From positions 1-64,000 of the forward strand of contig DAIDHP010000021.1 of the NCBI GenBank assembly GCA_027459625.1: DNA of 64,000 bases, written 5' to 3'. Made by a program: the position numbers and the translations under genes. Under the pieces are notes generated by a model that saw only the letters and a list, made by a program, of their open reading frames with translations, made no database searches and was not told where the DNA came from. The stretch comes from Chthonomonadales bacterium. Its GTDB lineage: Bacteria; Armatimonadota; Chthonomonadetes; Chthonomonadales; CAJBBX01. Positions 18,094 through 23,892 of the stretch are shown here, in pieces; the first letter of the stretch is position 1, and each line of letters opens with the position of its first letter.

Positions 18094-18357
18094 ACCGTTG
18101 TCTCCTTTACTTAGAGGTGCGAAACTCGTTAGGTTTGGGGTTCGCCTCTTTGTTAACAATCCGCAATCGCCTTAATGGAGGAACCGATGGCCGCATATTG
18201 AGAGAGGCGTGGTATTCCCTTGCATTGCGAATTACAATGGTATTTTTACCCTATGTTAAGGCGATTTGAATAGCCGTTGGATATCTTTCCCGGTAATACC
18301 CGGTGGGTTGCAATTCCGCATGGGAATCCGGCAGAATGTTGAATGAAGGAGAAGATT

Positions 18358-18729
18358 ATGAACCAAAAAGAAAACACAGGGACTTCGGAACCGAAGGAAC
18401 AACCGAAGAGCGTTCGGTTTAAAAGCGTGAAAATGGGAGCCACCGCCACGGGAGCCTCCGCCACAGGAGCCTCCGCCACAGGAGCCTCTGCGACAGGCGC
18501 ATCCGCCCTTGGCGCTGGTGCCGTAGGTGCATTCGCAACGGGAGCCGCTGCGTTCGGAGCGATATCTCTGGGGGCTTTGGCGATTGGAGCGGTTGCGATT
18601 GGAGCTTTGGCGATTGGCAGTCTTGCCTTGGGGCGGGTTCGGATTAAAAAAATGAGGATCGACGAACTAGAGGTGAAAAGACTGCATATTTGCGAACTGA
18701 TTAACGATTCGGAGGCGCCTCCAAGTTGA
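18358..18729 (+). CDS. Gly/Ala pentad-repeat protein
   Basis: The start at MNQKENTGTSE follows AAGGAG; an ATG 15 nt earlier overlaps that ribosome site. The 123-residue protein has a polar head, then at least 14 consecutive five-residue units of the form G-A-x-A-[T/L/I/F/V] (residues about 27-96). The same five-residue spacing continues through KKMRI-DELEV-KRLHI-CELIN. The regular hydrophobic positions suggest a narrow parallel beta-helix, like pentapeptide-repeat proteins but with Gly-Ala in place of the A-D/N-L signature. There is no signal peptide. Similar Gly/Ala-rich proteins of unknown role occur in other bacteria. It converges on flgM with a shared terminator. Confidence 0.7.
   Translation: MNQKENTGTSEPKEQPKSVRFKSVKMGATATGASATGASATGASATGASALGAGAVGAFATGAAAFGAISLGALAIGAVAIGALAIGSLALGRVRIKKMRIDELEVKRLHICELINDSEAPPS
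18436..18645 (+). repeat. Array of fourteen 15-bp in-frame units
   Basis: From 18436 the DNA is a tandem series of 15-bp units beginning GGNGC. Units 2-4 are near-identical (GGAGCCTCCGCCACA twice, then GGAGCCTCTGCGACA); later units diverge at DNA level but keep the protein pattern. The identical units in the N-terminal part suggest recent slippage expansion. Confidence 0.85.
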
Positions 18730-18854
18730 ACCATGTGCTCATCCTGCGGCATCCTCGTTGTTTTACGTCACTTTCGCCTTTTTGTAGAGAACCGTTCCAT
18801 TCTCCGCATGGGCGCCGGGGAAAATCGGCTGAGCTTGCGGGTTGAGCGAGTAAA

Positions 18855-18920: not shown

Positions 18921-19238
18921 CTAACGAATCCTGTCCGCATAGGCTCTGCGCATGATCAAATCCGCAATCTCGCCGCCGGTAACATGGTACGTACCATTAT
19001 CTATTTGAGATTTGAGACTTTGCACCATCTCATCGCGCGTGTCCGGAGAGTTATTCACCACTTGCTTGGCGAGTTGGATCTCCTGCGCTCGGGAGGATAA
19101 CTCCACGCTGGCCGCAGGATGTTGATTGCTGACCTGCGCAACCGCAACTCCCGTGTTCGGGTTGGATGCGTTACCCGCAACCCCCCCCGCCTGCTGAGTG
19201 CGGAGAATGTTGCCAACCTCTTCCATCGATATTTTCAT
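18921..19238 (-). CDS. flgM: FlgM-type anti-sigma-28 factor
   Basis: The start MKISMEEVGNIL follows AAAGGGG. The 105-residue protein has the FlgM layout: a disordered Asn/Ala/Gly-rich N-terminus, then VELSSRAQEIQLAKQVV and the sigma-binding C-terminal helices with SPDTRDEMVQSLKSQIDNGTYHVTGGEIADLIMRRA. FlgM holds the flagellar sigma factor FliA inactive until the hook is complete. No other flagellar gene lies in the window. Its leader carries a class-I cyclic-di-GMP riboswitch. Confidence 0.9.
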   Translation of the reverse strand: MKISMEEVGNILRTQQAGGVAGNASNPNTGVAVAQVSNQHPAASVELSSRAQEIQLAKQVVNNSPDTRDEMVQSLKSQIDNGTYHVTGGEIADLIMRRAYADRIR

Positions 19239-19244
19239 TGTTTG

Positions 19245-19281
19245 CCCCTTTCTCATCGGGGATTTCCCGTGAGGAAAATCC
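19245..19281 (-). promoter_or_regulatory. Candidate expression platform of the flgM riboswitch
   Basis: Read on the minus strand, GGATTTTCC then TCAC then GGGAAATCC (19281-19260) form a hairpin with one G-T pair. Immediately after, CCCC at 19261-19258 can instead pair with the GGGG of the flgM ribosome site at 19248-19245. The two pairings share bases at 19260-19261, so they compete. This fits a switch that hides or frees the ribosome site; which state c-di-GMP favours cannot be told from sequence. Confidence 0.5.
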
Positions 19282-19290
19282 GAAGTCGAA

Positions 19291-19388
19291 AGACGGCAAC
19301 CTGGCAGCCATAGCTTCCCGAGGGGTTCCCCTCAAGCCTTTAGGCCCATGGTTTTGCGTCCCTGCATTTCTGAAGGTTTGCCTTTTGC
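19291..19388 (-). promoter_or_regulatory. Cyclic-di-GMP-I (GEMM-I) riboswitch in the flgM leader
   Basis: Read on the minus strand the element contains, in order, the conserved blocks GGCAAACC, CAGGGACGCAAA, GGGCCTAA, a variable hairpin (GAGGGGAACCCCTC), then TATGGCTGCCAGGTTGCC. Order, spacing and the closing GGCAA/TTGCC helix match the class-I aptamer that binds cyclic di-GMP. It ends about 50 nt before the flgM start codon. Confidence 0.95.
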
Positions 19389-19554
19389 ATCTCTTCTGAA
19401 CTTATTATCGGCGGACTATCTCGAAATACTTAGGCCTCGGAACGTGAAAATGGTAAAAAACTGTTAATTCGCACAGTCGGAACTCATATTTCGGCAAAGT
19501 CCTGTGAAAACTTTCGTATCATACAAAATATCACAATCGGGATAGTTTGTCAAG

Positions 19555-21670: not shown

Positions 21671-22498
21671 ATGACCGAGTTGATCTGGGATGGAAAATAC
21701 GATACGAACGGACGGAAAACCGCGCCATTGCGCATCAGCCTGCCGTTCCAGACCGTGGAAACCGTGAATGAATCCGCGCAGGAACGGCAAAAAGCTTTGG
21801 ACCTATTCAGCGAAGGTTCCGAAACCGAATGGCGCAACCGCCTGATCTGGGGCGACAAAAAGTATGTTCTTCCCTCGTTGCTTCCTGAATTCGCCGGCAA
21901 AGTGAACCTGATCTACATCGACCCGCCCTTCAACACCGGTGCCGATTTCTCCTACACCGCCACCGTCCCGGATGATCCGGGAGAGGAGACTGGCGGGGCT
22001 TCGTTTGTGAAGGAGGCGAGTGTGATAGAGCAAAAGGCGTATCGTGATACTTAGGGTCGGGGGATGGATTCCTATCTTCAATGGTTCTACGAGACGGTCG
22101 TTCTTCTGCGCGAACTCCTATCCGAAACTGGAAGCATTTATGTGCATCTTGATTATCATATCAGCCATTATGCCAAGGCAGTTATGGATGACGTGTTCGG
22201 TGAAAGCAATTTCCGAAATGAAATCGTTGTGAATAGAACACGCAAAAATATCATTGAGGCCAAAACGATATATTCATTGAATATTGCGTATGATATTCTT
22301 TTTATTTACGCGAAATCCTCTGCTCATCGAATGAATCCCGTTTATCGCGAGATAAAAAGAGAAGAAAGATGGCATTCATTGGATGCTCCAAACTGGTCCG
22401 GGGGAAGACCCAATCTTATTTACGAATTATTTGGAAAAATGCCACCTAAAGGTAGATGTTGGGCATGGGAAAAAGAAAGGGCAGAACAGGCGTTAAAA
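21671..22498 (+). pseudogene. Truncated, nonsense-mutated adenine DNA methyltransferase (Mod-like)
   Basis: The reading frame starts MTELIWDGKYDTNG behind GAGG and carries the catalytic motif IV as IYIDPPFNTGADF. At 22052-22054 the frame hits TAG where homologs have Trp (QKAYRDT-x-GRGMDSYLQWFYE), then continues in the same frame with SGSIYVHLDYHISHY-type residues (TGSIYVHLDYHIS) and NWSGGRPNLIYE. It is cut at about 22498 by the ISL3-family element, losing the C-terminal half. Such enzymes pair with a helicase/nuclease in type III-like restriction systems; no partner is present. The gene cannot work as it stands. Confidence 0.85.
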
Positions 22499-23892
22499 GG
22501 TTCCTCGCTGTTTTGTGTGGGTAGTCATTGACAAGGTATCCTATCTCCAACATCATCTCACCCAAGGAAAGACATCAAAATGAACCATGAAAACGCACTT
22601 TTCTCCGCCGCGTTTGGATTGCAGCCACCTTACAAGGTTATCAAGGTCGATTTTAATATTGAAACCGGGGAGCTTCACATCCATCTCGATTATTCCGGGG
22701 GAAGTGAGTTTCCCCGCCCCGAATGCACTGCATCCTCCAAGGTGTATGACGCCAAACCTCGACGATGGCGTCATCTGAACTTCTTCGAACATCGCACATA
22801 TCTTCACGCGCCGGTTCCCCGCGTTAACTGCCTTCGATGCGGTGTCAAGACCGTGCGTGTGCCCTGGAGCCGACCGGAAAGCGGATTCACTTTGTTGTTC
22901 GAGGCGATCGTCATCATGCTTTGTCAGTCTATGCCCGTAAACGCCGTCGCCCGGATGTTGAACGTTCACGACACCCGGATATGGCGCATTGGGTCAGGCA
23001 TTACGTCGAGGAGGCGCGTTCGAAGGTCGACATGAGCGAAGTGAGCGAGCTTGGCGTTGACGAAACATCCGTCAAGCCCGGCCACAAGTACGTGAGTGTT
23101 TTCGCCGACATTCGCGGAAAGCGGGTTTTGTTCGTTACGGTGGGCAAGGACAATCGAACCTTCGGGAGTTTTAGCGAAGAGTTAAGGAGTCACGGAGGCT
23201 TCCCCTCCAACATTAAGACAATTTGCATGGACATGTCACCCGCCTTCATTTATGAGAAAACTTGTTTTCGATGAGGGCGCTTTGAATGAGTTTCCCGACG
23301 CCAATATCACATTTGATCGTTTTCACGTGACCAAACCGGCGAATAACGCCGTTGATCAAATCCGCCGCCAGGAGGTGAAAATGAACGATCTTCTAAAACA
23401 GAGCCGTTATATCTGGTTGAAGCGACCGGAAAATCTTACGGATCGCCGGAAGGACAAGCTCGAAATGCTGCAAATGCTTAACTTTTCAACGGCCAAGGCC
23501 TATCAATCGAAAACAAGTTTCTCATTGATGAAGCTAAACCTCCTTGAGCTTTGGGATCTTCCGGACCGTGAGACAGCCGCCGCCCATCTTGACGCATGGT
23601 ATCTGTGGGTTACGCAAAGCGATATCGGGCTGAGCATGAAAAGACTGGCGAAAGCGATAAAGGCTTACGCTTCGCGTATTCTTAATTACTTCCCGGACCG
23701 ACTTACAAACGGGCTTATGGAGGGGATAAACTCCCTCATCCAAGCGGCCAAAGCCAAGGCGCGAGGGTATCGAAATTCAAGCTATTTCAAAACAATCATT
23801 TACCTCATAGCGGGCAAGTTGAATTTCGAGTTGCCCGGATGAAACAGGTGGGAACGGGTAATATTATTATCCACACGAAATAGCGAGGATCC
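22499..23892 (+). mobile_element. ISL3-family insertion sequence with 30-bp terminal inverted repeats
   Basis: The left end (22499-22528, starting GGTTCCTCGCTG) and the reverse complement of the right end (23863-23892, GGATCCTCGCTA) agree at 24 of 30 positions, including a GTGTGG block. Length 1394 bp and the GG start suit ISL3. It contains one transposase gene, broken by two frameshifts. The 8-bp flanks (left CGTTAAAA, right AATATATT) do not match, so a target duplication is not evident. Confidence 0.85.
22580..23842 (+). pseudogene. ISL3 transposase with two frameshifts
   Basis: Three consecutive frames rebuild one ISL3 transposase: a zinc-knuckle-like head with CTASSKVYDAKPRRWRHL and VNCLRCGVKTVRVPW; then HYVEEARSKVDMSEV, LGVDETSVKPGHKYVSVF and ICMDMSPAFI; then ITFDRFHVTKPANNAVDQI and the tail LMEGINSLIQAAKAKARGY. 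The DDE catalytic residues lie in LGVDETS, CMDMSPAF and MEGINS. Frame break 1 is near 22991 (two extra G, or one lost base). Frame break 2 is a 22-nt insertion at 23251-23272. The element can no longer move by itself. Confidence 0.9.

Follow-up and report, generated by a model that had tools for sequence, protein, structure and literature searches.

A conserved class-I c-di-GMP aptamer in the flgM leader of Armatimonadota, predicted to turn on synthesis of the anti-sigma-28 factor

Background

The leader of the gene for the anti-sigma-28 factor FlgM in the 64-kb stretch of DNA analysed here (the window, to which all coordinates refer) raises the question whether c-di-GMP may act directly on the inhibitor of the flagellar sigma factor and, if so, in which direction. 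c-di-GMP usually lowers motility via proteins or by blocking flagellar operons. A sequence-only reading of the window had proposed that a class-I c-di-GMP riboswitch controls flgM by way of a competing ribosome-site hairpin, and had guessed that high c-di-GMP raises FlgM. That such riboswitches occur on motility genes, as that reading stated, is documented for Clostridioides difficile, where the class-I riboswitch Cd1 lies upstream of the flgB flagellar operon and acts as an OFF switch (PMC5386303). No report of the aptamer in front of flgM and no paper on riboswitches in Armatimonadetes was found in a literature search that included few subscription papers and did not include the 2007 GEMM paper (Weinberg).

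Results and Discussion

A class-I c-di-GMP aptamer upstream of a solitary flgM gene

A covariance-model search returned an end-to-end match to the Rfam family of c-di-GMP-I (GEMM-I) aptamers, RF01051, at 19392-19292 on the minus strand (72.3 bits, gathering cutoff 35, E-value 3e-12 in the 64-kb window). The window has no further Rfam match, two weaker-scoring matches at the same region being of the same clan, and the whole 4.5-Mb genome has no further RF01051 match; for a c-di-GMP-II riboswitch no Rfam match was obtained at this region with E-values up to 1, only RF01051 being listed. The flgM leader thus contains a RF01051 aptamer, and the four aptamer blocks picked out by the sequence-only reading are indeed found in order on the minus strand; its placement in the leader stands, the aptamer itself starting slightly upstream of the interval that had been assigned to it (19245-19388), namely at 19392. 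The Rfam alignment contains both the P2 and P3 hairpins, with a GAAA tetraloop, and helix P1 begins at about 19394, just outside the RF01051 match, where the computed 5' strand AGAGAUG (19394-19388, minus strand) pairs with CGUCUUU (19295-19289).

The gene that starts 53 nt downstream of the aptamer (ATG at 19238, stop codon ending at 18921, minus strand) encodes a protein of 105 aa that matches Pfam PF04316 with 60 bits (cutoff 25, E-value 2.5e-16), in agreement with its earlier identification as flgM. Its neighbours in the window are non-flagellar, i.e. a Cys/Met metabolism enzyme on the other strand, a DUF6786 protein and an aldo-keto reductase, so that flgM stands alone. It is followed by a GC-rich hairpin at 18880-18853 (minus strand; GCGGGGAC, loop, GUCCCCGC, U run), read by eye as a probable intrinsic terminator; a terminator scan of the region did not list this hairpin, probably because A-U pairs lengthen the stem into the U run. 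The genome also encodes a FliA match of 241 bits and three flagellin matches. The window further contains a 128-aa reading frame of short Ala/Gly-rich repeats without Pfam match (18343-18729, plus strand), opposite to which the other strand is likewise open (18246-18752), and, as judged from the translations only, the fragmented start of a DNA-methyltransferase-like frame followed by transposase-like pieces (21671-23842, plus strand).

Conservation of the association between aptamer and flgM

The same association recurs in related genomes. Among the 31 genomes of the order, to which Chthonomonas belongs, flgM is present in 18, and in all of these (18/18) the aptamer lies directly upstream on the same strand; flagellin and FliA are found above the curated cutoff in those 18 genomes plus G013, and neither is found in the other 12. 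In G013, an order relative that is 99% complete, flgM and the aptamer were not found. The leader and flgM of the window also occur in JAJZOL010000214.1, a bacterial MAG.

At the level of the phylum (291 genomes) FlgM was found in 215 genomes and RF01051 in 173. The aptamer is located upstream of flgM on the same strand in 82 of the 150 best-listed flgM loci, distributed over 17 of 34 families, a share that selection by FlgM score may have biased. These loci were searched with a covariance model built from 42 phylum aptamers and carrying the Rfam structure (R2), in favour of which a first model with a structure from RNAalifold (R1) was dropped. The aptamer structure covaries in the 42 sequences, none of 500 shuffles reaching the observed value on any of five measures. 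P1 is re-made with other letters in other families (AAAGAUG/CAUCUUU, GACAG/CUGUC, GGCAG/CUGCC and CUCAG/CUGAG); an energy swap test on P1, comparing own with swapped partners across the leaders, was not significant.

A pattern search over one genome per species (84,980 species) for a typical aptamer core followed 81-141 nt on by a Met-x-Ile start matched 117 stretches, 30 of which contain a FlgM reading frame; all 30 are from Armatimonadota, as judged from titles or from identity with a phylum contig, with the proviso that distant FlgM could be missed by a search profile derived from Armatimonadota sequences. As an outgroup control we took 50 non-Armatimonadota genomes with such aptamers, reached through the pattern loci: FlgM was found in 41 of them, the 30 flgM loci that were inspected all lacked the aptamer, and an Rfam search of 20 of those 30 loci was also negative. 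The earlier assignment of a (predicted) class-I c-di-GMP riboswitch to flgM thereby receives good support from the Rfam score, from the conservation in 17 families and from the absence of the aptamer from flgM loci elsewhere.

Some genomes contain more than one flgM. A second copy beside a second FliA and flagellin gene is without aptamer (G003:C7:1300-1464; L056, L113), and several other genomes (families f8, f34, f35) combine an aptamer-bearing flgM with one that lacks it. Tandem c-di-GMP-I aptamers (two or three) precede other genes at G010:C283, G040:C116 and C93, and G023:C177.

Predicted competition between the aptamer and the ribosome-binding site

In the minimum free energy structure of the unliganded window leader (RNAfold) the aptamer is broken, and its 3' end, GCC-(G)-UCUUUC (GCCGUCUUUC; 19297-19288, minus strand), which is shared with P1, pairs with the ribosome-binding site strand GAAAGGGGC (19252-19244, minus strand). 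The probability of this pairing is 0.94 in the unbound state and 0.00 with the aptamer and P1 forced, and the accessibility of the ribosome site changes from 0.05 to 0.81 accordingly; a stricter fold with a longer forced P1 yields 0.04 and 0.47, and with only P2/P3 and the ligand-contacting C constrained the pairing is 0.38 and the accessibility 0.51, the bound state being represented in all these folds by constraints, without ligand energy or cotranscriptional folding. As the masking strand comprises the 3' CC of the aptamer that contacts the ligand or closes P1, binding and masking would be mutually exclusive.

The sequence-only reading had instead let a CCCC (19261-19258) mask the ribosome-site GGGG (19248-19245). 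Both elements exist; their pairing has a probability of 0.00 in the unbound and 0.05 in the bound computed ensemble, most order relatives lack the CCCC, and this masking was rejected. On the computed folds it is the aptamer 3' end, not CCCC, that appears to compete for the ribosome site.

The duplex of the window by itself is not exceptional when compared with shuffles of its strand (p 0.245), a result that is not decisive alone. The seven core pairs of the masking helix are preserved with few exceptions in the 18 order members, among which pair-by-pair covariation does not rise above shuffles because the ribosome-site side barely varies. In place of pair covariation within the order we used a swap test across families, in which the aptamer 3' end pairs with its own ribosome-site region at -11.81 kcal/mol, versus -9.57 kcal/mol with swapped partners; none of 20000 permutations was as good, and permutations at the family level gave the same outcome.

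The proposed mechanism runs as follows. Without ligand, the aptamer 3' end would pair with the ribosome-binding site and block translation of flgM; with ligand, the same nucleotides would be held in the aptamer, through the ligand contact and helix P1, and the ribosome site would be freed. FlgM would then be made and bind sigma-28, and the late flagellar genes would be off. The folding analysis thus predicts a translational ON switch in the window, in which a rise in c-di-GMP raises FlgM and lowers late flagellar expression, and the sign so predicted is the one that had been guessed from the sequence. We put the probability that the flgM mRNA contains a c-di-GMP-I riboswitch turning translation on at high c-di-GMP at roughly 0.77.

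Different expression platforms, the same predicted sign

The leaders of families f8 and f33-f36 have a GUUUGCC with U's after it that is able to base-pair with the aptamer 5' strand AAAGGCAAAC (in 18 of 21 at p<=0.05 versus shuffles), and this pairing, where it forms in the unbound state, vanishes when the aptamer is forced. For these families we predict competition between terminator and aptamer, again an ON switch. The ribosome-site platform and the terminator platform hence both predict that c-di-GMP turns flgM on.

The main alternative is the opposite sign, i.e. that binding of c-di-GMP masks the ribosome site, so that FlgM decreases and sigma-28 is released at high c-di-GMP. Both kinds of switch occur among class-I aptamers (Cd1 as OFF switch, pilM as ON switch; PMC9262584), and in the stricter window fold part of the ribosome site still pairs elsewhere when the aptamer is forced, leaving it 0.47 free. 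Against this, with the aptamer forced, 44 leaders gain more than 0.05 in computed ribosome-site access and 3 lose access, i.e. access goes up in 44 of the 47 leaders that change (an order relative, G012, has no increase); the site is masked by the very 3' end that contacts the ligand; and in the terminator families it is likewise the terminator strand that competes with the aptamer. We consider the opposite sign unlikely.

The probable ligand

In Vc2 numbering the ligand-contacting nucleotides of the class-I aptamer are G20, A47 and C92 (PMC4744006). At the equivalent positions, for which the Vc2 numbers were mapped to alignment columns within this analysis, the window aptamer has G, A and C, and the alignment of 83 matches has G in 83, A in 82 (with one gap) and C in 81.

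An aptamer of this kind could sense another cyclic dinucleotide, e.g. 3',3'-cGAMP, since cGAMP riboswitches have the same fold (PMC9262584), and two phylum aptamers that are not linked to flgM, L020 (G010:C283) and L105 (G058:C77), have an A at the selectivity position, the G20 equivalent, and are possibly of the cGAMP type. However, the window aptamer and every other aptamer linked to flgM have a G here, and not the A of the 3',3'-cGAMP riboswitch (GEMM-Ib), and 10 GGDEF matches occur in the genome, which together make c-di-GMP the likely ligand of the window aptamer and the cGAMP reading quite improbable. Least probable of all is a conserved leader that does not switch, its fold merely stabilising the mRNA or being a decaying remnant: the folding analysis identified no expression platform in families f6, f18 and f22, but the contact positions are nearly invariant over the 82 leaders, the aptamer structure covaries, and in each genome the platform fits its own ribosome-site strand.

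A sigma-28-type promoter before the leader

Boxes of the type TAAA/GCCGATAA have the form expected of sigma-28 promoters. A promoter-like site TAAG-N16-GCCGATAA, missed in the sequence-only reading, is located at 19432-19405 on the minus strand and ends 12 nt before the aptamer; it agrees with TAAA/GCCGATAA at 11 of 12 positions, a match that none of 100 dinucleotide shuffles equalled, and is the only match in the window to a looser sigma-28 pattern. One of the flagellin genes of this genome is preceded by TAAA-N16-GCCAATAA, and at least 10 of 12 positions match in 59 of the 82 leaders (the window and 58 others), mostly with the same N16 spacing.

Sigma-28 thus probably drives the gene for its own inhibitor, and the riboswitch would set the yield of inhibitor from the mRNA. 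As the flgM mRNA seemingly arises from a sigma-28-type promoter, the arrangement would constitute a negative feedback loop, the strength of which is set by c-di-GMP.

For Armatimonadota as a phylum we lean towards one common circuit, in which sigma-28 transcribes the FlgM mRNA and a c-di-GMP ON riboswitch gates FlgM, the platform having been rebuilt (ribosome-site masking or terminator) and the sign kept.

Relation to known c-di-GMP riboswitches

With Cd1 the window system shares the aptamer class, the control of flagellar genes by c-di-GMP and, as predicted here, the lowering of motility at high c-di-GMP (PMC5386303). In contrast, Cd1 is an OFF switch that works by transcription termination and acts on an early structural operon, whereas the gene concerned here encodes an anti-sigma factor and is predicted to be turned on; moreover, flgM of C. 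difficile is a sigma-D-dependent late gene and not a direct target of Cd1, whereas flgM in the window is the predicted direct target. The GEMM-I riboswitch of pilM in Geobacter metallireducens (PMC9262584) is an ON switch based on mutually exclusive aptamer and terminator folds, as we predict for families f8 and f33-f36; it differs in that its ligand is cGAMP and its targets are pilus genes, and in that the predicted platform of the window is translational and not a terminator. Vc1, upstream of gbpA in Vibrio cholerae, likewise combines a class-I aptamer with positive regulation by c-di-GMP (here predicted), on a different gene and with transcription, translation or transcript stability left open as the level of control (PMC4744006).

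Conclusion

What appears to be new at this locus is the kind of target that an established aptamer class occupies, a gene within a probable sigma-factor feedback loop. If the proposed reading is true, direct control of the anti-sigma factor would let c-di-GMP act post-transcriptionally on the late-gene checkpoint and the negative feedback loop would become conditional on c-di-GMP, and the phylum would then offer a natural case in which the mechanism of a riboswitch was altered in evolution while its logic was retained.
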